Positions 2,297-26,966 of a DNA stretch of 64,000 bases are shown here, one piece after another (position 1 is the first letter of the stretch; every line of letters starts with the position of its first letter). Both the position numbers and the translations under genes were made by a program. Below the pieces are notes generated by a model that was not told where the DNA came from, ran no database searches, and saw only the letters and a program-made list of their open reading frames with translations. This stretch comes from Antedon bifida (Eukaryota; Echinodermata; Crinoidea; Comatulida; Antedonidae), in assembly GCA_963402885.1 (NCBI GenBank), contig OY727096.1, positions 7,945,501 through 8,009,500 on the forward strand. The letters are read 5' to 3'.

Positions 2297-3865
2297 CTAT
2301 GTTGAACGATTTAAATTATTGTGTCCATGTTTGTGGCAAATGTTACAATACACTGGCTCATTATGGAAACAATTTCTTGTTTCATGGTTCATAAGACCAC
2401 ATTTGGAGCAGTGAGAATTGCGACGGCCAGAATTTCTGTAATTAATAGTCTGCATTCCATAGACAGGATAATAGCTACCTGAGATGTCGGTGTCACATTG
2501 GTCGTGTGCAGACGGTCTTGATATATCTTGCGCTGATTCCCTCTTTGATGATCTAGCTGAATGGCTGTTCTTAACTCGCTGGTGATGATGCGATCTTGTG
2601 AATGTAGGTCTGCTTTTCCTGGTCAAATCAGGAATGATACTGTGAACGGCATTGATGTTGTGAAGTAGAACATGAGTTCCATCCTTGGAAAGATGTAATC
2701 CTCCACTATTCAGGTTTCTTTTGATAATATTTCCATTAAGTAGCCTAAATGATTCATTATGATCAATAATTGAACAATTCTCATTGGAATCCACAATTTG
2801 CCTGATGTTTGCATTAAACCTATTGACACGTTGTTGATGATCGGTCTTGTCCAACCTAGGGCATACAGTAGATAAGACTAACTTACATCCGGGGTGTAGT
2901 TGACTTAGATTTTCAACCATTTCAGTATACTGATTGATACCAAGTTCAACTTGGTTATCCGAGTTGCAATCATTGGTTCCCACGTGTATAATAATAGTTT
3001 GGAACTCGCCAGCATCTTTTAGTTGATTATGTACGTCTGTAGATTTAGCACCACGCATGCATTTTACTTTGGTACATTTCAACCCTCTTTCATTGACGTC
3101 TCTAATCATTGAGTCACCAATTAGTAACGTATCATATATCTTTTGTGCATTGGCATTTCCTTTGTTTTGTGATGGTAGTGCATTTCCTGTGCTTTGTGAT
3201 GGCTTTGAACTTCCTTTGTTCTGCAGTACCTTCTTATCCTTAATCTGATCTGATTTTCGAGAACTCATTGGCTTAACATTTGAATTGTTAATTAATGGCG
3301 CGGGCCTCCAACAGGGATTGCTATTTGGTCCTTGTTGATTAAGCTCAATCTGAAGGTTCTCTATTTTAACTGACTGTTCACTGACAACGTTAGACAAGCG
3401 TGTAATTTCCTTATTTAGATCCATTATCACTGATTCATGATCTGAATGAAGCCTCATGAGTGTTTTCATTGCCTGTGGTATTTCCTTGCAAAGTGGGCAT
3501 ATCCATACTTTAGGATTCGACGAAGCTTTGATATTCAAACAAATCTTATGAAAATGTTCTTGGCATAAAGCACATTCAAGTGGCTTACCTTTGTCAATAT
3601 TTACATACTGACAGCCTTCTAAACATTTAATTTTCGATGATGTTAAACTTGTTTGAGATGCTGTAACAGGTCTGGTGATTGTAGTATCGCTACTAGTAGT
3701 TGGAATATCCATATTTGATAAGTTTTGCGATTGTATAACTATAGAGTTATCAACATTACTAGTGTTACTTATTGTTTCCAACTGTTGTTTTTCCTTTGAT
3801 TGCATTATTGATGATACATTGAAGTAGATTATAAATGGAATTAAAGATATAGGCTGATGAAACAA
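2297..3865 (-). CDS. LINE ORF1: PHD finger, SGNH esterase and zinc knuckle
   Basis: This is the first ORF of the same retrotransposon, 522 codons. The first 20 codons are hydrophobic and may be leader, so Met21 (3805) is the likelier start. A C4HC3 PHD finger spans about residues 81-126. A short heptad-like helix follows at 140-177. An SGNH-hydrolase/esterase domain spans about 243-415, with LLIGDS (Ser252), HVGTND (296-299) and KDGTH (Asp395, His398). A CX2CX4HX4C zinc knuckle lies at 486-499. A second knuckle starts at Cys507, Cys510 and His515, but Arg520 stands where the last Cys should be. PHD plus esterase is the known ORF1 architecture of CR1-like LINEs. It presumably acts as the RNA-binding partner of ORF2. 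The 5' end of the element is not resolved. Confidence 0.9.
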   Translation of the reverse strand: MFHQPISLIPFIIYFNVSSIMQSKEKQQLETISNTSNVDNSIVIQSQNLSNMDIPTTSSDTTITRPVTASQTSLTSSKIKCLEGCQYVNIDKGKPLECALCQEHFHKICLNIKASSNPKVWICPLCKEIPQAMKTLMRLHSDHESVIMDLNKEITRLSNVVSEQSVKIENLQIELNQQGPNSNPCWRPAPLINNSNVKPMSSRKSDQIKDKKVLQNKGSSKPSQSTGNALPSQNKGNANAQKIYDTLLIGDSMIRDVNERGLKCTKVKCMRGAKSTDVHNQLKDAGEFQTIIIHVGTNDCNSDNQVELGINQYTEMVENLSQLHPGCKLVLSTVCPRLDKTDHQQRVNRFNANIRQIVDSNENCSIIDHNESFRLLNGNIIKRNLNSGGLHLSKDGTHVLLHNINAVHSIIPDLTRKSRPTFTRSHHHQRVKNSHSARSSKRESAQDISRPSAHDQCDTDISGSYYPVYGMQTINYRNSGRRNSHCSKCGLMNHETRNCFHNEPVYCNICHKHGHNNLNRST

Positions 3866-3989
3866 TACCTATTTGAAACTTAGCTTTTTCGAGATAGCTT
3901 ACTTGAAACAAAGCAGATCGCAGAAGGTGTTTGTATTGGCTTTGTTCCCTGAATGCTTGGCTTGTAAGAAAGCTAGATTTTTTGGTCAC

Positions 3990-4735
3990 AGCCTAAGATT
4001 TTGTAGAGTCAAAATCTTACAAATCTTCCAAACTTGAATTCCAGTAATAATACTTACAATAATGCTTAAATCAACGCGAGCTTTTGCGACGTGTAGCGAA
4101 CTTCATAACGTATTTTGGACGTATGCTTTACTGTATGCTTGTAGCTTATGTCAAGTGTATTTTCTTATTGTGTACTATGGTTTAACTTTGTTTACCCTAT
4201 TGATCTGTCCAAATCCTATTGTCTCCTTAACCTACTGTAAAATGACTTCTACTTCTTATTGTGTACTATGGTTTAACCAGGGAAGAGTAATTTAACTCTT
4301 CCCTGGTTTAACTTTGTTTACCCTATTGATCTGTCCAAATCCTACTGTCTCCTCTACCTACACTAAACAGTTAATGGGCTATTATGATTTATCAAATGTT
4401 TGTTTTTCATACCATTCAGTAGTGGTATTCATATACTTACATGTATACTTTATTGATCTGTTCAAATCCTATTGTATCTTTAACCTACTGGTTTTCTGGT
4501 TATTAAATTATAAATTGTAAATGTCTACTCAGTTTTTTTAGGCATTTTGGTTTATATTTGTACAAAAGTAGTATAGTATACAGGTATGAAGTACTAGTAG
4601 ATGTTTCTTATTGGTAGTTAAACATTCAAAAGGAGTTAATGTTAATTTCTGGTTATAATTTTTTTGGGGGAGAAATAGTTACTTTTTAGTCTTTTTTTAT
4701 TACTAGAACATATTCACTTCGTAACATATTCTTTT
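3990..4735. repeat. Duplicated segment with hairpin, between LINE and minisatellite
   Basis: No gene is seen here. A stretch of about 50 bp containing GTTTACCCTATTGATCTGTC occurs near 4190 and again near 4316, with weaker echoes near 4458. Between the first two copies, 4274-4307 is a near-perfect hairpin with 14-base arms (AACCAGGGAAGAGT and its complement) around a 6-base loop. Related hairpin arms recur near 15505 and 17962, so this may be the end of a small mobile repeat. Confidence 0.5.
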
Positions 4736-6447
4736 CCTACCATATTCATTTCTTGAAACATCCATTTGCCATTCATTTCTTAACATATTCATTTCTTATG
4801 TATTTCTTAACATTTTCATTTCTTATGTATTTCTTAACATTTTCATTTCTTATGTATTTCTTAAAATATTCATTTCTTATATATTTCTTAACATATTCAT
4901 TTCTTATGTATTTCTTAACATATTCATTTCTTATGTATTTCTTAAAATATTCATTTATTATGTATTTATTAACATATTCATTTCTTATGTATTTCTTAAA
5001 ATATTCATTTCTTATATATTTCTTAACATATTCATTTCTTATGTATTTCTTAACATATTCATTTCTTATATATTTCTTAACATTTTCATTTCTTATGTAT
5101 TTCTTAAAATATTCATTTCTTATATATTTCTTAACATATTCATTTCTTATGTATTTCTTAACATATTCATTTCTTATGTATTTCTTAACATATTCATTTC
5201 TTATGTATTTCTTAACATATTCATTTCTTATGTATTTCTTAACATATTCATTTCTTATGTATTTCTTAACATATACATTTCTTATATATTTCTTAACATA
5301 TTCATTTCTTATGTATTTCTTAACATATTCATTTCTTATGTATTTCTTAAAATATTCATTTATTATGTATTTATTAACATATTCATTTCTTATGTATTTC
5401 TTAAAATATTCATTTCTTATGTATTTCTTAACATATTCATTTCTTATGTATTTATTAACATATTCATTTCTTATGTATTTCTTAACATTTTCATTTCTTA
5501 TGTATTTCTTAACATATTCATTTCTTATGTATTTCTTAACATATTCATTTCTTATATATTTCTTAACATATTCATTTCTTATGTATTTCTTAAAATATTC
5601 ATTTATTATGTATTTATTAACATATTCATTTCTTATGTATTTCTTAAAATATTCATTTCTTATATATTTCTTAACATATTCATTTCTTATGTATTTCTTA
5701 ACATATTCATTTCTTATATATTTCTTAACATTTTCATTTCTTATGTATTTCTTAAAATATTCATTTCTTATATATTTCTTAACATATTCATTTCTTATGT
5801 ATTTCTTAACATATTCATTTCTTATGTATTTCTTAACATATTCATTTCTTATGTATTTCTTAACATATTCATTTCTTATGTATTTCTTAACATATTCATT
5901 TCTTATGTATTTCTTAACATATTCATTTCTTATGTATTTCTTAACATATACATTTCTTATATATTTCTTAACATATTCATTTCTTATGTATTTCTTAACA
6001 TATTCATTTCTTATGTATTTCTTAAAATATTCATTTATTATGTATTTATTAACATATTCATTTCTTATGTATTTCTTAAAATATTCATTTCTTATATATT
6101 TCTTAACATATTCATTTCTTATGTATTTCTTAACATATACATTTCTTATATATTTCCTAACATATTCATTTCTTATGTATTTCTTAACATATTCATTTCT
6201 TATGTATTTCTTAACATATTCATTTCTTATGTATTTATTAACATATTCATTTCTTATGTATTTCTTAACATTTTCATTTCTTATGTATTTCTTAACATAT
6301 TCATTTCTTATGTATTTCTTAACATATTCATTTCTTATATATTTCTTAACATATTCATTTCTTATGTATTTCTTAACATATTTATTTCTTATGTATTTCT
6401 GAACATATTCATTTCTTATGTATATCTTAACATATTCATTTCTTAAA
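4735..6447. repeat. 27-bp minisatellite with higher-order repeats
   Basis: About 63 tandem copies of a 27-base unit (consensus contains TTCTTATGTATTTCTTAACA) fill this stretch. The unit is nine codons and no indels occur, so a 549-codon frame stays open (4753-6402). It encodes only a monotonous hydrophobic repeat and is not called a gene. A variant with TCATTTATTATG occurs at 4951, 5356, 5599 and 6031. The spacings are exact multiples of 27, and the variant pattern repeats with a 24-25 unit period, so blocks of about 650-675 bp were duplicated. Confidence 0.95.
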
Positions 6448-6516
6448 ATGATTTTTATAGCGTTGCTTTTTGCATTGCTGTGATATTTCTATATAAACAA
6501 TCTTCTACTATCACAG

Positions 6517-9500
6517 GTCAACAAGGATTTGCGATTTATGATTATGATGGATGGGGTTCACCCTGATATGGATACTTGCCTTCTCATAGATTATAAAGGT
6601 ATAAGTAAAATCTTTTTTTGTATGCTTTCAAATAGTAACCATTTTATAATATAATATACACTACAGGCATAGAACAAATCCTAAACCACATGGGATATAC
6701 TGAAAATATATTAATTACTTTGAAACGATAAGATGAGGAAATTTGTGAGAATGAGAACAATTCGCCGCAACTGAGATTGGAACCCGGACCCTTCTGCTTG
6801 ATATGCAGATGTCCTAACCATTAGACCACTGGGGCTTTCATGGTATTGTTCAAACTTGATTGGATAGCGACTCTTTAACACTCTCGGCGTGGTATGCGGA
6901 ACAGCACTAGTCCCTTTATCTAATTTCTGGCACAGTTTTATCAAATTTTGGAGGTGGGCTTCTGGGAAATAAAATTTAATCTTTTTCTATATTCACATCT
7001 TTCTTCATGTATAGTTACTACACATATTTTTAATGAGGTTTAGTTTTACTGTACAGCATATCTAAATATATCAAAATGTAATGGTCTATATCCATATAGA
7101 ATACGTCCTTTTGCTTGGAAATTTCTACATAATTGTGTGTATAAGGTTTATATCTGAGGACCAAAATGTAATGTTTTATGAGATCCACATACCTTCATAT
7201 TTGCGGGGTGGGCTTACATATGGGGACCAGATATGTTCTAAATCAACACAGATCATTCTGCATAGAAAGGATTTAAAATTTGGGGATGGGCTTATGTATG
7301 AGGACCAGAATATATGTTCTATGTTTACACATATTTGAGAATGGGTTTTTCTGAGGATCAAAATGTTCTACAGTACAGTATTCCATCCAAACATGCCCTA
7401 TAACCCGAACAATACCTGTGAACCATTGATTTAATTTTGATATGTATCAGAAAATGTAATGTAAGATTTAGCTGTAAAGCTCTGTCTACACTATCAAAAA
7501 AATATGGACATGCTGTCATATTACTACCATATTTGGGTATATTACTACCATATTTGGCACATCACACTTTTTTGTCAAACTAGTTTGATAGTGTAGACAG
7601 AGCTTTAGATGATAAAATATTTTATATGATAGAAGCTGTGATTGTAAATTATATTTATTTGTTTTGTACAGGTCATTTGATTTTAAATACAGTGGATTGT
7701 ACGAATCCAAATGGTGGTAAACTTCCACACAATGTGGATGTAATGATGAGTGACTTTGCTGGTGGTGCCTCTGGCTTTCCTATGACTTTCTCGGGTGGAA
7801 AATATACAGGTAAGTTAACTGTTTCATACTTTATAATACAAAAATGAATGCAATTTCATTGGTTAATTCTGTGTCACATGCTGTTAAGTATTTCTTTTAC
7901 TGAATGGAAAATTAATATCTAACTATCAGTAACCTGTGCTCCGCTACAAGTCGCGATCGTTGGCAATCGCAAGAGTTGAATCCAGTCCAGCGATATCACA
8001 ACGTTAAAACGCAAGAACTGACCAATCATCTTGATGGAAAAATCCTGCTGAGTACTGACTACATTTATGTTTGTTGCATTTGTCAAAGCTAGGACCAGCC
8101 TAGCCAAAGTGACTATAAAATGATGTTCCGGAAAGTAGGCGTGGTATTAGGTAGATCTAAGTCTTCAGCCTAGTCCAAAATGCTATTTTGACTAGGATTT
8201 GAAAAATGTCTTATACGTGACAAGAATAATTTATTCTTCTAGTATAGATCCTCATATGATTATAGTTGCTTTATTGTCTATCATGTAAACTTTTTCGTAT
8301 TCATGTCATATTGAAATAAAAATAACCATTGATGGTTAGGCCTACTGAGAACCATCCGTATAGAGATAGTAGTATGCCTAGGCCCATGTCTCCTACACTT
8401 GATCAACGATTATAGATTGTAAATACATTTTTTTTCCAATCCAATTTTTGGTCAAAATGGATAACTAGTATGTTACATTAAAATGGAATATTCAAAAAAA
8501 AAATGTTTAAGAATTATTTTTTCAGGGGGACAATACATCTTTAACAATATTACTATCTTTACAAACCTGATTTAGTAATTGATTGAACTTAATCAGATAA
8601 AAGTCTATCTCATATTTAGAATAAAGTAGCACACTAGTGGTATAGTCCCAGAGATTTATTCAAACCAATTGTGCTATTCAATTCTAAACTAGAAAGCCAC
8701 TCCAAGCGTGCATAGGCCTACTGTAAAATTCTCCTACATAAGATTTCTCCGGAAATACATATATATTTTTTGTCGTGTGTGTCCTAATGCTGTGTGTGAT
8801 TTATTGTAGGCTAATTTCACTACAAGCATGTGTATGCGAGTTTGGATAAAAAAACTTGTACATTAAATCAAATTATGTTTTACAATTGCAAATCATAAAT
8901 TATAAAGTGGTCCAGAATTGGGACCGTGGTCCGGATTGTCTCCAAAATGTAATGGAGTGGTCCTAACTTTTTGAGTTATCCTGCTATTCTAAAACAAACA
9001 TGCAGTAATATTATAACATCATCAAGCACTTGTCACACTAACTGTACATATTACAGGATGTCTATTAGTTGAGAAGAGTAGACAACCATTAGATAAAAAT
9101 TCTACTCATATTCTCCTCATCATACCCCACACTTATTTGCTGTCATAGTTTCCAAACATTACATAAATCCTACTCACATCCTTAACAATATCATATACCC
9201 CACATTTATTTGCTGTTATTTTGATTACTTTGTTTATATTGTGTTATGTATACAAAACGATAGCATGTGGTATGTTTAATAATTACCATTTATCTGTTGT
9301 GTATCAGTTTGTCTATTTGATTAGTAGAACATGGAATCATAATACATTGTCATTCATTGTATAATGTAAGGTTTACGTGCAGAAAGTGAGGCAGCTATGG
9401 CTATTTCACAATCCAGTGTCAATATGCTACAGTATGTTTAGGAAGCCACAAGTTTTGAACATGCATGACAAGACGAGTATACACATTTATGATTATATCA

Positions 9501-12500
9501 CATGTATCCAATGCTAGGAAGCTGTGTAACTGTGTAATATAACATGATTATTTAGCACCCTCTAGTGTTTGGAGGGATTAGGAGACTTTATTTCTGCTAT
9601 AAAAATAAAAATGTTCAGAAACAATTGCACACAAGACGGAACCAGAAAAATAGGTCTGGAAAATGTTATGTTATAGCTGTTGTCAGTACAGTAGTAAATC
9701 AAAATTCAATTCCAGATTCTTAATATCAAAGCCTTTTTACAGAACCTCAATGGGATTTTTCACTGAAACCCTTTTAAAGCACACTACCGTACTAGATTGT
9801 ATTACCATATTATTTTAAAATTTCTCAGCAATTGGTTCAACATTATATTGTAATGACAATGTATACATACATACAATAGCAGCATTTATTGTTTTTAGGT
9901 TGAATGCTTCAGAGATTTTAATGCTGAATAAACAAAAGGAGAAGAATTCTATTATTTCTCTAAAAGCTTTAAATTTTCTCTAACATTGGTTACAATACAT
10001 TTTCTTAGCAAAAAGTACAAGTTATATGATAATGCAATAGCCTGTAGCTCCAAAACATCAACACATACCATTGCTTTTGTTCGGCATTTTCTCTAACAAT
10101 GGTTTATATTTATAATATACTGTAGCCCTGGGGGAGTTAGAATTATTATTACATTTGCATTTGTAGGCTTCAGGCAATTTTTGTTGAATAAACAAAATGA
10201 GAAGAATTCTATTATTTCTAAACTTTACACATTTTCTTAGCAAAAAGTACAAGTTATATGATAATGCAATAGCCTGTAGCTCCTAAACAGCAACACATAC
10301 CATTGCTTTTGTTTGGCATTTTTAGGCTACATGAAATGCGCATAAAATAAAATCAGTGAACTCTTGTTATTTCCTCTGTACTTTGATTGTATTCAACAAC
10401 TGTTAGCCATGGTAGTCTTTGTTTCCTGTAAAATATAGGATAATATTTAATCAAGACTTAAATATTTTTCAAAATTTACTGTCAGTTAAGTCTCCCCTCA
10501 TTTTGTTTATATAACGTGTCAGCAGACAGTTAATTTTAGTCAAGTCAATCACTTATTTACCCTAGGCAGAAATTTTCTCTAAAATAATGTTGCTTTATTT
10601 CTTATGACAGTTCGTATTAAATTACAACCTACTAATTTACTTGAATAATTATAATAATCAATTCGTTATTGACTTCATTCATCTGTAGTTTAAAATGACA
10701 CACTTCTCAACATGTTCATTAAATGTTCTAATTGTTGGGTTTGCTATAATGATATTATGTAAACAGATATCTGTCCCAATTCAAATTCAAAAAACCTTTG
10801 TTCAGCTGTTATCAAAGTAAAAGGAAATTAGAACAGAAGAATAAACTATAAAATATAAAACAAGACCAAAATCAAATCAAAGTTTCAAGCTCAAGCTGAA
10901 ATTGAAACACGTTCTGCACATTATACAGGAAGATGATAATGTTCATCTATTCTTTTTTAGTGGTTTGATAATCCCTATTACAGCTCAAAAGAAGCTATAC
11001 TAGGATTAGGTGAGGGTGAACCAGATACAGCAGGCCCCATAACTGGGATAACCCCTACTCATAGATGTCCTGGGTTTTTAGGAGGGCACATGAACCATAT
11101 ATGTACAGTGGACCTCCATTTTAAGTAGTTATTCGAGAAGACCTGTTATAAAGCTTTGTCTACACTATCAACAAGTGTGATGTGCCAAACAAATATTTGT
11201 GATATGCTCAAATATGGTAGTGATATGCTCAAATATGGTAGTGATATAACATCATTTTGTCCATATATGGGCACATCACATTTTTTGGTCACATACAATT
11301 TAATAAGTGTACACAGAACTTAACACCAGAACTATGGTCTAGGATAAACTTGAACCTGTTTGGATATTATGACTTTTGTTTACAGCTACTTACATAAAAA
11401 AATAATGATTTTACTTTAAAATAAAAAAAAAACGAATATATTATATGTAAACTTTATTGTGAAAAACCTGAGTGAAAAAAAACCAAAGAAAAATAGCTTC
11501 TATGAATGGACGTTCGTTGAGGGCAGGAATGCTAGTTAATCATACCCAGTACCGTTTTGATTTTACGTTCACTTCACATGAAAAATTATATATTTCAGAG
11601 GAATGGAAAGCTAAGTTTGTTAAGAACGAACGTAAGAAACTGCTGTATTATAAGATTATTTCTGCTATAAAAATAAAAATGTTCAGAAACAATTGCACAC
11701 AAGACGGAACCAGAAAAATAGGTCTGGAAAATGTTATGTTATAGCTGTTGTCAGTACAGTAGTAAATCAAAATTCAATTCCAGATTCTTAATATCAAAGC
11801 CTTTTTACAGAACCTCAATGGGATTTTTCACTGAAACCCTTTTAAAGCACACTACCGTACTAGATTGTATTACCATATTATTTTAAAATTTCTCAGCAAT
11901 TGGTTCAACATTATATTGTAATGACAATGTATACATACATACAATAGCAGCATTTATTGTTTTTAGGTTGAATGCTTCAGAGATTTTAATGCTGAATAAA
12001 CAAAAGGAGAAGAATTCTATTATTTCTCTAAAAGCTTTAAATTTTCTCTAACATTGGTTACAATACATTTTCTTAGCAAAAAGTACAAGTTATATGATAA
12101 TGCAATAGCCTGTAGCTCCAAAACATCAACACATACCATTGCTTTTGTTCGGCATTTTCTCTAACAATGGTTTATATTTATAATATACTGTAGCCCTGGG
12201 GGAGTTAGAATTATTATTACATTTGCATTTGTAGGCTTCAGGCAATTTTTGTTGAATAAACAAAATGAGAAGAATTCTATTATTTCTAAACTTTACACAT
12301 TTTCTTAGCAAAAAGTACAAGTTATATGATAATGCAATAGCCTGTAGCTCCTAAACAGCAACACATACCATTGCTTTTGTTTGGCATTTTTAGGCTACAT
12401 GAAATGCGCATAAAATAAAATCAGTGAACTCTTGTTATTTCCTCTGTACTTTGATTGTATTCAACAACTGTTAGCCATGGTAGTCTTTGTTTCCTGTAAA

Positions 12501-15500
12501 ATATAGGATAATATTTAATCAAGACTTAAATATTTTTCAAAATTTACTGTCAGTTAAGTCTCCCCTCATTTTGTTTATATAACGTGTCAGCAGACAGTTA
12601 ATTTTAGTCAAGTCAATCACTTATTTACCCTAGGCAGAAATTTTCTCTAAAATAATGTTGCTTTATTTCTTATGACAGTTCGTATTAAATTACAACCTAC
12701 TAATTTACTTGAATAATTATAATAATCAATTCGTTATTGACTTCATTCATCTGTAGTTTAAAATGACACACTTCTCAACATGTTCATTAAATGTTCTAAT
12801 TGTTGGGTTTGCTATAATGATATTATGTAAACAGATATCTGTCCCAATTCAAATTCAAAAAACCTTTGTTCAGCTGTTATCAAAGTAAAAGGAAATTAGA
12901 ACAGAAGAATAAACTATAAAATATAAAACAAGACCAAAATCAAATCAAAGTTTCAAGCTCAAGCTGAAATTGAAACACGTTCTGCACATTATACAGGAAG
13001 ATGATAATGTTCATCTATTCTTTTTTAGTGGTTTGATAATCCCTATTACAGCTCAAAAGAAGCTATACTAGGATTAGGTGAGGGTGAACCAGATACAGCA
13101 GGCCCCATAACTGGGATAACCCCTACTCATAGATGTCCTGGGTTTTTAGGAGGGCACATGAACCATATATGTACAGTGGACCTCCATTTTAAGTAGTTAT
13201 TCGAGAAGACCTGTTATAAAGCTTTGTCTACACTATCAACAAGTGTGATGTGCCAAACAAATATTTGTGATATGCTCAAATATGGTAGTGATATGCTCAA
13301 ATATGGTAGTGATATAACATCATTTTGTCCATATATGGGCACATCACATTTTTTGGTCACATACAATTTAATAAGTGTACACAGAACTTAACACCAGAAC
13401 TATGGTCTAGGATAAACTTGAACCTGTTTGGATATTATGACTTTTGTTTACAGCTACTTACATAAAAAAATAATGATTTTACTTTAAAATTAAAAAAAAA
13501 CGAATATATTATATGTAAACTTTATTGTGAAAAACCTGAGTGAAAAAAAACCAAAGAAAAATAGCTTCTATGAATGGACGTTCGTTGAGGGCAGGAATGC
13601 TAGTTAATCATACCCAGTACCGTTTTGATTTTACGTTCACTTCACATGAAAAATTATATATTTCAGAGGAATGGAAAGCTAAGTTTGTTAAGAACGAACG
13701 TAAGAAACTGCTGTATTATAAGACTCAAGTGGTGAGAGATGTTGCTCCTAAGGTTTACTGCCCTTTTGCTGGCTACTTTGTGGAAGCACATCCATCAGAC
13801 AAGTAAGTATTTACTTTATTTCTATTATAGGGACCATGTCAAAACTATTCTACTCTACAGTTACTGCAGTAACTGAACTGTGTTCACTCTTTATTTGTTT
13901 ATGCAATTATCTAGCAAGATTTGTTGATGGTATTGCAGTGACTATAGTATCAACTTCTACATCAATTAACAACCTAACATCAAAATTCATATCAGTAAAA
14001 AATGTAGTTGATACAGTAGTAGAATAATTTTTACATGATCCCTTAAAATATTGAATAAATTAAGGCCAGAAACTGAAACCGAATCGAGAAGACCATTTAT
14101 TTGATCCAAAACAAAAGCATTGTAAATTGTAATATATTTTATACTGAAGAAAAAATAAATAGTTTATGTAAAATAATTTCACAATTATTTTATTTCAAGG
14201 AAATACTATGCAACCAACAAGAAGGTTATTAATAACGGTCATAAATAAAATACCTTTTTTTCATAAGCATGTAAATATTTTTTTTTACATAAGAACAAAA
14301 CCTTTTACAAAAACCAAAATACTCAATAGATTCTATTTAAAGAGTAAAGATACCTAAAACTTGCGATTTTTATAAGCAGAGCTTTTGTAATGTCTTTTGT
14401 TTCATCATTGTCGCTAAGTAATTTTTATCTTTTAAATAAACCTTTTTTTTTCAGATACGTCAAAGAAACAAATTTTAAAAATGGACCTGCTACTCTGAAT
14501 AATCTAATCAAACAATACTCCCCTGACATTAACACCTGGACCCCTGAACCAGGATCCGTACTTGATTTAGCAAAAGCTATCACAGGTGAAAGGTAATGCA
14601 CTACTTTTTAATTTTAATTGGCCATTTGACACATTGCTGTAAATTGTCACAGATAACAATGTAAAAACATAAACAAAAAAACTAATTGTCAATATCTTAA
14701 AATGGTTAAAATTAGCACTAAAAAAAGGGAGATTAAAATAGAAATAATAATAACAAAATAATCATTAAAATATCATAAAAAGGGTAAAAATACAGGTGAT
14801 GATCTACCGCAATGTACAGGTTGTACAACAACCTAAGTGGTAGGTTGTCTCAAATCAAAAGCTTCATTAGGAAACATCTTGGCCAGTCAGATGTTTGTCT
14901 TAAGCTCTGTCTACACTATCAAACTTTTGATGTTCCCAAATATGGTAGTGATATGCCCAAATATGACATTATCATGTCCATATTTGGGAACATCACACCT
15001 TTTTTTTCAAACTAGTTTGATAGTTTAGACAGAGCTTTATACCCTTATTATTTTTACAAATTTCAGTGATTATGTGACTTACCCAAAGAAAGGTACAAAA
15101 GTAATGAAAGACAGGTATGTAGCTAGCATTTATTTTATATACTGTATTTATATTCAAATAAATTCCCCACTTTGAATAAACATCCCTTTGAATAAATGCC
15201 CCCACTTCACCCCCAACACATATTTCTATTTGTAGTAGAATTCATTAATGTACAATTTACCAAGCCTTATGATAGCATTTGCATACATGACATCAGGCTA
15301 GGCTGTGGACTGATCATGTTTGAAAAACAAGCAACATGCCTTTTCAAATAATTTAGTCCTTGGCTTAGCCTGTTGTTAAAAAAAAGCAGGTGTGTTGTAG
15401 GCCTTTTTGTTGTTTGCTTCTTCGCAGCAAAACTGTGGCATTACAAGCTAGGCCTACTCCAACTAAGTACATGTTATGCCTGCAGTCGAATTGCGTGCTA

Positions 15501-18500
15501 CCATGGAAGAGATTAAGTAATTTCACTCTTCTCTGATGGTACCATATATAAAATCAAATATTTACTAGGCTTTCATCGGGGCATGGTAAAAAATATAGCC
15601 CTCTGTGTTCTGGAGATATACTATCCTTCGGATATAGTATTATCTCCAGACCACCTTTGGCTATATTTGTAACCATGCCCCTAACTCCGGTAAATATTTG
15701 TATATTATATTCGTGCAATAGAATAAATAATTTTATGAGGGTATTTTCACCTCATTAAATTATTTTGCACTCATATAATATGCATATTATGTAGCATGAT
15801 TATAGTTATGAATGTTTGTTGTGTTTTATTCAGATGGGATTTTGACCTGTATGTAAATCAAATCAACAAGAATTATGACAACGAAATTTTCGCATACCCA
15901 GAGTGGATTCAATTTTATTATAATTGGACAGGATTTAACGAATATAACCTTGTCATTAGGGTAAGTTGAAATGGCTCATTGACACGCTTGCTTTCCAATC
16001 GCATGGTCTGAGGTTCAAATCAAACGACACTTTTTCTTAATTTTTCCACAGTAGTTTAGAAAGCATGGATGTATGTTTTCCCACCCTGTCATTTTTGACT
16101 TATTTGTTTGTGTTGAAGTATCATATAATTAAAAATAACAATGTCCTTAAATTTATGATTCAAAATGTGGTGGAAATAATAATTTTATTTGAACATTGGC
16201 ACATTTGATTCAGATTGAAACGCAAGTATAGGATACCTAATTTTTTTTTTTTTTTATAACATCTAAAGATCATCTATTTACTTCTATAGCCTACTTACTG
16301 CATATTTGAATTGTTTTTTGAGCCTGCATCATCATGTAATTTAATAATGTCATCGTCACTCACGACAGAGCAAAACCAGATATTGATCGCCCTTTCTTCT
16401 TGTTGTTATGAGTGGTTGCGCGTAGTTGCCGGTCTTCAACCTGTTGATAGTAATTCACTGCCTGCGCTCTCCCTGGAGCATGCACAAAAGCAAAGCAATG
16501 TTGTTATACTGTCATTAAGTAAAAATCTGAATTCACCACTCTATGTGTAACGATTGATAGGGCTCTTACTTTTTATCATGTGACTCACAATCGTCCAATC
16601 AAATAACAGAAATCTATATAGGTGTAATTTAAACTACAATATTTAATTCTGTCAACTCTCTCGATACCAAAGAATAATACTTTTGGCTTATATAGCAGGA
16701 AATTAAATTACCAAAGGTCCCATATTCTTTTATACTATGTGATACAATTTTCCACTAGGCGGATTGAAAAGGGTGAGTTTGTCGCTGCATATTTATATCC
16801 ATTTCCAACCAATCACAGTTCAGGGATGTTTGATTCATGTGATTAAATTGTGGAAAGCAAGATTTAGTCTTGATCAAGAGTGTTTGGTTTTTTTACTTTA
16901 ATTTGGTTTTTTTTGTTTCAGATGATTGAGACGGACGATAATTTTGAACCAATCGAAGGTGGTTATGATTTTCTTGTTGATTTTAATGGTAGAAAACCAA
17001 CATATCCAACAGAAAGACCACAACGAGAGCATAGCTACCTTGAAGTAAGTTTTTTTATTGTAGAAAAGTTTCAAAATGGCGGCAGATTGCTCAGATCAAG
17101 CATTGTAGCCCAAATATAGTCCAGATAATGGAGCAAAATGTTGTATACATTAAAAACTTGGTTTTACATACCCTGATTATACATTCCCTGGATTTTACGT
17201 AGGCATAATATGACCGATGACGTCATCATTTTTAGTGTGTTATTTTCTTACATTGAGGTGCAATTTAACAACAAACACATGCCACACACAGACATTCCTC
17301 CTACAGCAGCGACTGTTTTTACTGATAGAAAAAAACAAGAACATTGATTTTTTATTTAAACATCACACAGCCTGCATATACTTTTATAGTTAGGCCTGAC
17401 AGCTAGGCCTAGATTAGTCAGCATGCTGTAAGTAAAATAGGCAAACGTGGCAGCCTTTTTAGCTACGATCTATGTATTTAGGGGTCAATTTAAGCAACAT
17501 GGATTTTACAAATGCCATGTTTTAGGTATGTCTTTTGGTCCTGTACCGTACATAAAATGAAGGTCTCATTGTACTTAGCTTATACACGCACAGATGAATG
17601 TTTTGTATTAAATGATCGTCGCCTTTCATCTACCGTCTCGATATGAATGCCCAGTCACTATTCTAAACTTTTATATCTTTTTGGAAGCACATGGTTTACA
17701 CTGTACACAAACCTTACTTTACTAGTGTTTATGCAAACGGCCATGCAAACCTTTAAACAATTTAAACTGATAATTGGTTTTAATTATTAATTTATTTTTA
17801 GATGAAGAATCGAATGGGTGTTCATCGAGAGACTGTTGTACATGGTCTGTTTTGGGACAACCTCTACATCGGATTCAACAATCGAATCTCCCGAGAACCG
17901 GATACTTTCCATTATCTGTAACTATCATTTATTTTTGTTATTTGGTAAAATTGAAAAAATTGAAGAGTTAACTCTTCCCTGGTAGAATTAGTAGATTTAC
18001 TGTGCACTTTCTGTGGCACAGGATTGTCTCCATGCCCACAGCACACCAGTGTTAATGACAATTGGTTAAATAAATTGATTAAAGATTGGTCGAAGTGGGT
18101 GCATTACATCACAATATGAAAATATCAATCCGAGCGCGATGCATGTTGGGATTTATAGCAGGCCGCTAAAATTATTAGAATCTACTTATTTTTCACATTT
18201 TTAACCGTTTAAAGACGGAAAAAAATATCGCAATAGGTCCATATAGTATTTATATTTTTACATAAAATGTAGTGCGTCACCTTAAATTAGGTAAAAAAAA
18301 AGTCTAGTGTCTTTAAACTGACTGAAATCAGAAGCCATTGTACTGATCTCATAGCATCCGTTGCACTGTCATGTCAACCTTAGATTAGAATAAGAATGAG
18401 AAAGTTCTAAACTTACATTATTCACATTAAGCTGCAATGTTTTTTTTCCAGATTTTGGAACCACATGCAGATTCTTTTGAAGAAAGATCTACCACGTTGG

Positions 18501-21500
18501 GATAAGTTTCTTGAGCAACAACGTGCCAAAGGAGCGGAGAGAAAAACTGTATGGAAGCCATCTGGTGGATTAGAAGCTCTTAAAGGTAATCCTTACTGCT
18601 TTACAACTATTTTACACAATGTGCAGGGTTAGAAATTAAATCTCGGGAGCCAGCAGGGCTACCAAAAAATAAATGTTAATCGCCCTTATCAAAATCTAGT
18701 GGCCACCATTTTTTTTCAATACCGTTTTCTGCATTTGTGATAGTATCATGCATGTTCTGCCATGTCTAAAATGTCCAGCTTCCAATTCCAGTGTTGCAAA
18801 CAAGCCCCAAATCTACCTCCAGCCATACCCTTGGTAGTATTAAAAAGGGTTGTGTTTTTTTTTTGTGTGGGGAGGCTCAGTTTCAATTGCTAACTAGGCC
18901 TACAACTTCATTAGAAAGGCTAGAAGGCAAGAGGCATACAGCACATGTTTTGAGGAGTATACAAGAACTGACCAAGAGACAAAAATGAAGCAACTTGGCT
19001 CATTAAAAATGATAAACATGTTTATATGCTATTGTTACTCCGGTTCCCAAAGAAAATGGTTGTACTAGGGTTGACAAATTTCGACCAATCTCGCTTACAT
19101 GTATCCTAGCTAAGGTAGCTGAGGGCTTCATTAAAAAATGGCTCTTAACAGATATCGAGAAAAATCTTGATAACAACCAATATGGTTGCCGTAAACACTT
19201 TTCTACAACCCATAATTTGGTTGATCTACTAAATGTGTTCTATGAAGGTAGTAACATTCCCAAATCTGTTGGTCAGTTAGTTTTAACTGACTTTAGTAAA
19301 GCATTCGATTGTGTTGACCACACAATAGCAGTTTCTAAATTAGTAACACTTGGCTGTAGACCTGAAATTGTACCGTGGTTAATTAGCTTTTTGTCAAACA
19401 GAACCCAACAAGTACGCTATAAATCCACATTATCAATGAGTGTTAATCTAACATGTGGCGTCCCTCAAGGCACACTCCTTGGGCCTATGATCTTTCTTGC
19501 TCTAATTAATGATGCCATGCAAGACTCGCCATGTAAAACTTGGAAATATGTAGATGATTTGTGCATAGGACAGATAGTAAAAAAGGATGAAATTTCCTCA
19601 ATTCAGAATGATGTTGCTTTACTGAATGTATGGTCTAATGAAAACAAACTAAAACTTAACCCAACTAAATGTAAAACTATGTATTTTAACTTTCAAAGAA
19701 ATCAATATGAACATGAACCCCTTTTGATTGGTAATGCTACAATTGAAATCGTTAATGAAACTAAGTTACTAGGTTTATGGATACAAGCCAACCTCAAATG
19801 GGACCGTAATGTTAAAGAAATTGTATCCAAAGCCAGCAGACGTCTGCATATATTGTGTAGATTAAGAAAGTTCAATCTTCCGAAATTTGATCTTGTAGAT
19901 GTATTTAAGAGTTACATAAGACCAAGTGTTGAATATGCTGTCCCAGTATGGCATTCTAGTCTTACTAAGAAACAAAGTGATATGATAGAATCTGTCCAAA
20001 AAAGGGCTTGCAGAATAATATTGTGTAATGACTACATATGTTATGACCAAGCACTCAATGATCTTTCTTTAGACACTTTATCTGATAGAAGGCGTAATCT
20101 ATGCTATAAGTTTGCTCTGAATTGTTCAAAAAGTATTCATTTTGGAAAATGGTTTCCAGTGAAGAATGTAAGTAACATGAAACTAAGACGTGTAAAGTAT
20201 CAACAACCCAAATGCAGAGTTGAAAGATATAGAAAAAGTGCAATACCATACCTTATCTCGCTTCTAAATGAATAATCATTATATATCACCCAGTACAGCT
20301 ATGCAATTCTTATTGGTCCTTTTTGGTGTTTTTTTTTTTCTATTTTAATATTTTAATGCTAAACTTGTTGAATGTTCCTGTATTGTATTTCTTGTGTAAA
20401 TTGCCTCCTTTTTTATATATAATTATCATTGGTTTTATACTTTTATACAAATTTTAATATTGAGAAAATGTAAATATCTTTGTAATTCAGCTAAGGCTGC
20501 GATGATGATAGTGAAATAAATGAAATGAAATGAAATGAAATGAAAAATTTAGGCCTACTATTACATTTTTTTGCAAAATTGCTTTGTTCATTAAAAAAAA
20601 GTAATGTGGTTGGTTGCACAGGTAGTACTCTGTCATGCCTTGTAGTAAAGGAGTCTTTGCTCTGATACCATACTGGATACACTACTGTATGAGGTAAAGT
20701 AAATTTGTGCTTAAAAGCAGTAGCTTAGCCTTCAAGGCACCAAAAAGGGGATTCTCCTGCCTACTTAAAAGTCCCATTCCCTATGTTTATAGGGAATGTG
20801 TCTTTAATTAATATTAACTTACATAATACAGTTTATGGAGGTTTAGGTTTTAGGATCTATTTTCCAAATAGGGCAACCTTTACAATTTACCAATAATTTC
20901 TAACCCTGCATACTTGTTTGACTTGCTTTACATGGTGAAATTAATATGTTGCGGTACACCACGTATGTTGTTCTGAATAAAACTGTTGCGTTACTCGACT
21001 TTTCGATCAATATACTCCAATCTTCCTTGGGAGGGGTTCAAATGTTATGCCGCATATTGATGCTTTCGCAACCAATTGTGTCGATTGTGTCGAATAAAAA
21101 AATGAAAATGAGTGAGAAAGCATTCTTTCTTTTTAAAACTACATACATGGTGTACCACAAACAACATATTTAACACGCATTGTTCTTTTCAGCCACTAAA
21201 ATTGAAACACTATAACAATTATATATTCTAACAATATTTAAAAAGGACCCAAAAAATAACGTCATCTGTCACAAAAATAAATTAGTCAATGGATATTTGA
21301 TCTAACAACAATAATTGAATAAGAAAGAAACAACTTTATAAAAGAAATATAATGATCAAGGGCTAACATTAAACTTAATATTTTAACTTTATTTATAAAC
21401 TTGAAGAGGTACCATTGTAACGATAAATTATTCTAAAGTTGAACACCATTTAAAGAAATTCTAAATGTTCAAATATCTGTTCGTGTACCAAAGGAGTTTT

Positions 21501-23755: not shown

Positions 23756-25781
23756 ACATTTAAATTGCTTATGTGTTCATGGTAAATTAAAAAATTTGTA
23801 AGATATTTTGATATAAGATTTTAAAAAAAACGAAGTTATGGCATGTAGGAAATAGAAAATGAAAGAAAATAATACTTGAAATGTTGTACATCAGCTGAAA
23901 AGTAGAAAATTGTAAACAGAATGATTATGCCTAATATTAATTTGTGCTAATTAAATTGTAAAGATATTTCGATATTAGATAAAACAGAAAATAGTTTTAA
24001 AAAATGAAAACAAACGAAAATGATGTAAAAACAATTAATACAATGATACTTTATATATATTGTCCATGATTTAAAAATTAGAATGTTCAAGTATAAACAT
24101 TTTAAAAATGTAGCAAACATTTATAAATGTGTATGGAATTTAACACATTTAAAGAAAGTGTGCTGTGTAAAAGCATGGACCATTTATAAGTAGGTCTATG
24201 ACGGTTGTAACAATTGCAGTACACTCTGGTTGTATTTGACATAACCTGAGCCATGTAATGATGTATTTAAAAATGATTGTTGCTTAATCATAAAAAATAG
24301 AGATTTACAGAGCTACTGTACTTTAAAAAATCACTGCTTAGATTACTTGATTGATTGATTAAACAGGATAGTGTATATTAATGTATTTGTTGCTCAATGT
24401 GGCATAATCTTGAAATGGTTTCACAAGAATATTTTTCAAAAGGCTAAATTGTGTAGATAGTAGGTCTATTTATATTTACAAATTAAAATTAAGGTTTTTG
24501 TTGGACTAAAATTATTAGTAATAAAGATAAAATAGTAATAAGTGTTTTAACACATAGTATAATGTAAAGATTAATTTTAGTTTATTGCCAGTATATTATC
24601 TATGTATATTTCATCATACTTTTATTGTAATTAGGCATGGTAGGCTTATATAATGTCTCTAAACCTAACCAATTTAAAATTAAATACATAGGCCTATATT
24701 TATTAGTTATTAATTCATCATTTTTACAATGGTAAAACAAAGATAATGAATATGCAATGTTTCTGAGAATTATGATACTGTATTTGTTCCTCTGCATTTC
24801 ACAATTATCTTGACGATTTTTAAAGTTGACTTGAAATTACAATAAAAAAAATGATAAATATAATAATGTCTCTCCTGTGAAAACATTTGCGAAAACGTTA
24901 AAGGACTTTCCGGTTCCGTGGTCCCAGTAGCATGATCCGGTTGCATAGGGTATGGTAATAATTTATATATAGATATGGAAATATGTATCACCCGGAGCTG
25001 GCTTCCACCATCAATGAACCGGAACATCCTGCAATCTAGGAAATCGAAACGCCACCTGGTAACAATTTCTATTAATGGGCAAAAGTGACATGATCTGCTT
25101 AAACTTCTCATACAAACTATGTGAAAGATCATTTTGAGAATAATAAGGACCGATGTTTACCCTGTTTCCGATCCCCGCCCCCAGTAATTTATTATAATTT
25201 CCTATAGGCCTACTTTTATCAAGTAATAATTCAATTCTTTTTTTGGAGGTGGGAGTGGGGTACACCACGTATATTAGTTCTGAAAAGAACTGTTGAGTTT
25301 CTCCTGTGGATAATGTTTATAACTAACTTAGAAAAGAATGCTATAGGATATACCACCCGCCTCTTATTAAAATACCCTAAACAAATGCACGTTTAAGGTA
25401 TGTATTATAATTATTTAGGTACTGTATTATTAAGTCGAGCATCAAAGGCCGTTTATTGTTCTTTAGACAATTGTTGAAATTGAATCATACCAGGTTCATG
25501 CACCTCGTCATACAAGGTCGCATCGACATTCTTCTTTCCCTTTCACAATGCTCTAAAGAAATTCGATCATCGACATACGGACTTCCTTAAACTGCGATTA
25601 TTTCCGCAATTTGCGGTTACCTTCCTAGTCGATAAATACATAATTATGTGAATCAAAATGCTCTCATCATAAACTGGAAAATCTGTCTCTTCAGTACGAT
25701 TTAACCTGCTCTAAAAACTAGAATTTGTTTATACTGTAATACCATAGCAGGTCTACATAATAGAGGTTAATCGACGCGGCC
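23756..25781. other. AT-rich intergenic DNA
   Basis: No gene is seen between the CMAH satellites and the GPCR. It probably contains the end of the CMAH 3' untranslated region and the GPCR promoter. A GGTACACCACGTAT repeat lies at 25258-25300. No clear TATA box or CpG cluster stands out. Confidence 0.4.
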
Positions 25782-26966
25782 ATGGATTTACATTTTGAGC
25801 AATCGGACTACTTTCTTAACGACACTGATGATACATCTGCCTATGTTCTCTCTGTTGAAGATTGGATAGCCTTTGTTGGGTTGTGGCTGGCATCTGCTTT
25901 CACAATCACGGGCAACACTCTTGTCATTTTGTCTTTTATAAGAGATCGAAAACTGAGAGGGAAGCCTTCGAATTACTTTTTGCTGGGGCTAGCAGTAATG
26001 GATTTTATAACTGGAATGGTGAGCTTACCTTTGGACAACATGTGGAGATTGAGAGATGAGTGGCCATATGGACGCGTTGTATGTATTTTTTGGACTTTTC
26101 TCGACTACACAGTCACCGTTGAATCAACTTACATCATTTCTTTAATATCCATCGATCGATATTTTCTAGTAAGTAAAGGTCTTCACTACAGGGATTTTCA
26201 AACGCGTCGTAGAGTTTTATTGCAACTTTTTGGAACACTTCTCTTTTCCGCCGTCTTTCACTTTGTTGCCATCGTCGTCTTCGAAGGATCTGAACACGTT
26301 GACTTTGACGAAGAATGTGAATTGAATGGGTTAGGAGCTCTCGCATACGTCGTACTAGCTGTGATATTAGAATTCATTATTCCGATGCTGATAGTATGTG
26401 GCTTCAATTTAATGCTATATATACGCATTCGAAGTAGACTTTCTGGTTCTATTGAAACACCCCAAAATGCTTCTTGTGAAAACAAACGTTTAAACACATT
26501 GGCGAAACGGAATCCAGAGAACCTCAATCATGTAGGCCTAAGCACTTCCGAAGAATCATCGACGTTGGAGACATTTGATCTCGAGGCATCTGCTAAACCC
26601 TCAGATATTGATATTCGATCAGATAAACAATCAAATGTACAACCGGTCAAGAAATCTGAATCGCCATGTTGTCAGGTTAGGCCTAAACGATCCAATAAAC
26701 AAAAATCGAGCAAGAAGGCGGCAACAACGCTCACCATTTTGATTGTGGTTTTTATCATCTGCTGGCTGCCTTACAACATCGTAGCTATTATTCGGAATTT
26801 GTCGCCTGAACTGGTTAGTGTACGCCTCTGGGATTTAGTCAACTATCTTCTTTGGCTAAATTCAGCAGTTAACCCAGTTCTATACGCAACGACAAATGTA
26901 CAATTTCGTAAGAATTTTGGAGAATTGTTGGAGAAATTATTCAAGCCTTTGACATGGTGCGCATGA
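25782..26966 (+). CDS. Aminergic GPCR, histamine H3/H4-like, single exon
   Basis: An intronless 394-residue class A receptor, presumably in the plasma membrane and amine-sensing. Seven hydrophobic helices are visible. Landmarks: N45 (TM1), D74 (LAVMD, TM2), C101 and D108 (TM3, the amine-binding 3.32 aspartate), D125-R126-Y127, C179 in loop 2, P201 (TM5), CWLPY with W328 (TM6) and NPVLY 364-368 (TM7). Two residues point to the histamine H3/H4 group: E197 at 5.46 and W358 at 7.43. Loop 3 is about 95 residues, Ser/Lys-rich. TM4 has no tryptophan where nearly all class A receptors carry W4.50. The start has a good context (GCGGCCATGG). The exact ligand is inferred; other amines, or acetylcholine, remain possible. 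Confidence 0.93.
   Translation: MDLHFEQSDYFLNDTDDTSAYVLSVEDWIAFVGLWLASAFTITGNTLVILSFIRDRKLRGKPSNYFLLGLAVMDFITGMVSLPLDNMWRLRDEWPYGRVVCIFWTFLDYTVTVESTYIISLISIDRYFLVSKGLHYRDFQTRRRVLLQLFGTLLFSAVFHFVAIVVFEGSEHVDFDEECELNGLGALAYVVLAVILEFIIPMLIVCGFNLMLYIRIRSRLSGSIETPQNASCENKRLNTLAKRNPENLNHVGLSTSEESSTLETFDLEASAKPSDIDIRSDKQSNVQPVKKSESPCCQVRPKRSNKQKSSKKAATTLTILIVVFIICWLPYNIVAIIRNLSPELVSVRLWDLVNYLLWLNSAVNPVLYATTNVQFRKNFGELLEKLFKPLTWCA

Follow-up and report, generated by a model that had tools for sequence, protein, structure and literature searches.

The window considered here is a 64,000-bp stretch of contig C9 (C9:7945501-8009500) within a 315.6-Mb genome of 27 contigs, and its left part lies in a CMAH-type gene that extends from C9:7937524, about 8.0 kb to the left of the window (as read from loci L009-L010), to window position 18585. 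The gene comprises 13 exons separated by 12 GT-AG introns, which together yield an open frame of 578 aa. On the plus strand of the window, GT-AG sites and the open frame delimit exon 6 (6517-6598), exon 7 (7672-7809), a complete exon 8 of 136 nt (13667-13802), exon 9 (14455-14592), exon 10 (15834-15960), exon 11 (16922-17044) and exon 12 (17802-17917), followed by exon 13 (18452-18585), whose 3' end is uncertain, the frame being open as far as a stop at 18632. Comparison with Pfam places a Rieske domain at residues 17-85 of the product (PF00355; 30.9 bits against a cut-off of 20.3) and a metallo-beta-lactamase domain at residues 134-220 (PF13483; 32.4 against a cut-off of 24). This is the order that defines CMAH, with the Rieske domain on the N-terminal side of a metallo-beta-lactamase-like domain, and the two domains, together with the 13-exon open frame, bear out the assignment made in an earlier sequence-only reading of this DNA. 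Comparison with PDB and NCBIfam returned weak metallo-beta-lactamase-fold matches only. The translation contains C-x-H and C-x-x-H motifs, which we take to be the ligand motifs of the family, and presumably resembles mouse CMAH. Thus, the name CMAH is supported by the domain order, the motifs and the presumed likeness to the mouse protein, and the enzymatic role of the product is predicted.

Several repetitive and coding elements accompany the gene. Intron 5 contains a 27-bp minisatellite of ~62 copies (4775-6445 of the window); as its unit length is a multiple of three, long frames stay open through it on either strand. A retrotransposon-like frame at 2297-3868 (minus strand) encodes a GDSL-lipase domain and gives a weak PHD match below the cut-off, another at 19016-20275 (plus strand) encodes a reverse transcriptase, and an intronless open frame of 400 aa at 25764-26966 (plus strand) matches the rhodopsin-family receptors (PF00001, 7.5e-49).

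A protein search of the genome gave 28 listed matches, which comprise the gene in the window, a set of exons on contig C14 (C14:2452110-2464587), a weak match on C16 that covers about 75 residues at 33%, and a fragment of exon 8 that is discussed below. The exons on C14 form a second CMAH-type gene (C14:2452106-2464587, minus strand, loci L023-L024) with 13 exons and a stop-free frame of 576 aa, such that the genome holds two intact CMAH paralogues. The two products are identical at 414 of 576 residues (71.9%), with a dN of 0.18, and the two genes have equal exon lengths in 11 of 13 exons; exon 8 measures 136 nt in both, whereas intron 7 measures 812 nt in the C14 gene and 5,857 nt in the gene of the window.

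The same assembly includes a mitochondrial contig, C27 (15,844 bp), which carries cox1 (Pfam match). With frames read by eye, the order on its main strand is cox1-cox2-atp6-cox3-nd3-nd4-nd4L-nd5-cytb, with nd6, nd1 and nd2 on the opposite strand, and its conserved stretches make sense under the echinoderm code (AAA = Asn, ATA = Ile). The main strand contains 46.7% T and 11.4% C; the Florometra mitogenome, with 44.9% T and 12% C, has been said to show a crinoid-specific bias (PMC7748595), and a rearrangement of nad4L within crinoids is named in the title of a reference cited by PMC7748595 and PMC7687491. These features fit a crinoid.

Within the CMAH gene of the window, self-comparison at an offset of 2,068 bases and blastn reveal two abutting direct copies of a 2,068-bp unit on the plus strand, the first at 9588-11655 and the second at 11656-13723, with no spacer between them. 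The first copy consists of intron 7 sequence and the first 57 nt of exon 8. The copies agree at 2,067 of 2,068 positions (99.952% in blastn, with one mismatch and no gaps), and differ solely at 11423 (A) and its counterpart 13491 (T), beside a poly-A run. In 50-base bins that share no base with the unit, identity at the same offset falls to 6-20 of 50, and chance is ruled out as the source of such a 2-kb match. The 300 bases to the left of the unit have a single match in the genome, namely themselves, and the head-to-tail, abutting arrangement beside this single-copy flank is that of a direct tandem duplication. The sequence-only reading, which had reported a nearly perfect 2,068-bp tandem duplication with about one difference and boundaries at 9588, 11656 and 13723, was thus correct to the base, the match at this offset starting at 9588 and ending at 11655.

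A search of the genome with the unit, in which 40 of 3,169 first-look candidates were scored and short copies are undercounted, found only two full copies among the 71 matches listed, these being the tandem pair. The remaining 69 listed matches, on both strands, fall in unit positions 1550-1748 and correspond to a dispersed repeat of ~170 bp, present once in each copy of the unit (11147-11327 and about 13215-13395). The repeat occurs at many sites in the genome and matches itself on both strands, which makes it palindromic and MITE-like. Given just two full copies among the matches listed, an origin of the whole unit as a satellite or transposon was rejected, and taken together with the single-copy left flank these results point to a local duplication of otherwise unique sequence. 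No RNA genes were found at the gathering threshold in 9000-14600.

To set the pair against its background, 274 kb were scanned, made up of the window, loci L009-L011 and L023-L024, and 16 pieces of C9 of 10 kb each spaced 2 Mb apart (160 kb). In this small sample, no other abutting near-identical pairs with units >500 bp were found outside satellite and tandem arrays. Short-unit arrays were seen at 4712-6445 of the window and in L009, L024, L025, L033, L034 and L035, and non-adjacent repeats in L025, L038 and L040. In L038, 481 bp are 100% identical between 2180-2660 and 9520-10000, 7.3 kb apart, the second reaching the end of the piece; these may be long terminal repeats. Locus L031 contains two abutting copies of ~2.1 kb at 4555-8781 (C9:13004555-13008781), 98.4% identical, whose unit is satellite-like, with 51 matches listed in clusters on six contigs (C8, C9, C11, C14, C15 and C16). 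It looks like a high-copy satellite, possibly centromeric, and was rejected as a second case.

With respect to the effect on the gene, the claim that the right breakpoint splits the exon at 13667-13802 stands in so far as the boundary 13723/13724 falls 57 nt into that exon, but the exon is continuous and complete there, and it is the left copy that is cut short (11599-11655; also recovered as a weak protein match, C9:7957092-7957157). Since exon 8 of the C14 gene is also 136 nt long, the regular exon 8 is the one at 13667-13802, and the fragment of 57 nt is the extra piece. A disrupted gene was rejected: the 13-exon frame is open and exon 8 is retained whole, which gives no support to the destruction of an exon in the present gene. 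The effect of the duplication is milder than the sequence-only reading implied, with intron 7 extended from the 3,789 nt that it would measure without the duplication to 5,857 nt.

We favor, with a probability of roughly 0.6 for the explanation as a whole, a young direct tandem duplication within an intact crinoid CMAH gene that is mostly intronic and neutral for splicing. A single event would have duplicated 2,068 bp, from a point in intron 7 to 57 nt past the start of exon 8. Because the right-hand copy in a duplication of this type stays attached to its original right flank, the whole of exon 8, both of its splice sites and the open frame would have survived. What the left copy would add is 57 nt of exon 8 that follow a good acceptor but lack the true donor; this candidate decoy exon is most likely skipped in splicing, so that a longer intron 7 would be the sole effect. 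Such a duplication was probably tolerated. If it is real and the copies have been free of gene conversion, one difference in 2,068 positions suggests an age of about 48,000-242,000 years under assumed rates of 5e-9 to 1e-9 per site per year, with Poisson limits from about 1,200 years to 1.35 million.

As for the route, joining of ends or template switching, as opposed to recombination between repeats, appears to be the probable mechanism. Neither microhomology nor inserted bases were found at the junction. No string shared within 20 bases of the two ends exceeds 5 bp; there are three of this length, all out of register with the junction (AGACT misses it by two bases), and no repeats of at least 10 bp were found within each of the three boundary stretches (171-181 bases), taken one by one. 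Recombination between end repeats was rejected, given the single-copy 300 bp on the left and shared strings near the ends of at most 5 bp. A junction as blunt as this is compatible with end joining and with template switching, and also with an assembly error.

The most serious competitor, which we consider possible although clearly less probable than a real duplication, is that a single genomic unit has been placed twice in the assembly, either as an under-collapsed overlap or as a second haplotype that is locally near-identical. The identity of 99.95%, the junction free of shared or inserted bases and the position of the one difference beside a poly-A run are all compatible with such an artefact, and near-identical (homotype) false duplications are described in PMC9516828. 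The same paper lists as marks of false duplications half or low depth, gaps between the copies, discordant linked reads and single-copy k-mers. Against an artefact, the gap mark is absent here, as there is no N at or near the junction or anywhere in the window (nor in the other loci examined), and the scanned 274 kb show no scatter of similar pairs. Moreover, the differences are too few for two alleles unless heterozygosity is low: two alleles would differ at no more than one position in 2,068 bp with a probability of about 4e-4 at a heterozygosity of 0.5% and 2e-8 at 1%, compared with 0.39 at 0.1%. The gap-free junction speaks against the retention of a second haplotype, and so does the single difference where heterozygosity reaches 0.5%. 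The sequence-only reading had named a collapsed or misjoined haplotype as an example of an artefact. Collapse would reduce the number of copies and is not the fitting error; those to consider are an overlap left under-collapsed or the retention of a second haplotype.

A further alternative, and an unlikely one, accepts the duplication as real and holds that it changes the output of CMAH, the donor of exon 7 being joined to the nearer acceptor. This donor indeed faces two acceptors, at 11599 and 13667, which are identical over the compared stretch. Read-through from the left fragment into the second unit would meet a stop (TAG) at 11742 and yield 368 aa. Use of a donor-like site at 11632 (score 6.2) would create an in-frame cryptic exon of 33 nt that keeps a frame of 589 aa open and adds an 11-residue repeat, and a site at 11722 (score 3.2) would likewise give an in-frame exon, of 123 nt; a third site, at 11762 (score 4.9), is out of frame and runs into the same stop. 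These scores derive from a tiny, self-trained matrix built from the gene's own 13 donors, the uncertain last one included (range 2.5-11.6). On that scale, even 6.2 lies below 11 of the 13 donors and is equaled by 126 plus-strand sites in the window, such that the evidence for a donor is weak; furthermore, an exon of 33 nt is short. Somewhat less probable again is the more specific possibility that the duplication is a real variant segregating in the population, in which the second acceptor for exon 7 would give rise either to a new CMAH isoform (with 33 or 123 nt added in frame) or to less CMAH, the second CMAH gene covering the loss; if true, a sialic-acid gene of an echinoderm would have been caught at an early step of change.

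The weakest of the alternatives, that gene conversion has kept the copies of an older duplication near-identical, appears very improbable: adjacent copies are favorable substrates for conversion, but near identity here spans the full 2,068 bp including both ends, whereas conversion would usually be expected to leave diverged edges.

The young tandem duplication that we favor is an ordinary kind of event, and parallels are offered by several known systems. Intragenic tandem duplications that include a partial exon, as outlined in summaries of work on disease and cancer genes, likewise place a direct tandem copy within a single gene, where one of its ends falls in an exon; in contrast, the unit in the crinoid CMAH gene is mostly intronic and one complete exon 8 remains. 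The heterotype and homotype false duplications of assemblies, as outlined in PMC9516828, are similar in presenting near-identical adjacent copies that resemble a partial gain of exons, whereas the CMAH copies have no gap between them. The loss-of-function alleles of mammalian CMAH (PMC6524697) involve structural change in the same gene; the crinoid gene differs in that its frame and exons are intact and a second intact CMAH is present. No CMAH duplication of this kind is described in the titles or abstract openings of the literature searched. One paper that mentions both CMAH and crinoids brings up CMAH only as a neighboring gene, within an analysis of synteny that covers Apostichopus and other echinoderms.

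Whether the duplication is real or an artefact, this CMAH gene is to be annotated as intact. An artefact would call for caution regarding CMAH exon counts in this assembly. If real, the duplication leads to a prediction on splicing that can be checked in RNA reads, and it would represent a very recent structural alteration of a gene lost in several mammals, within a genome where two intact copies of that gene persist.
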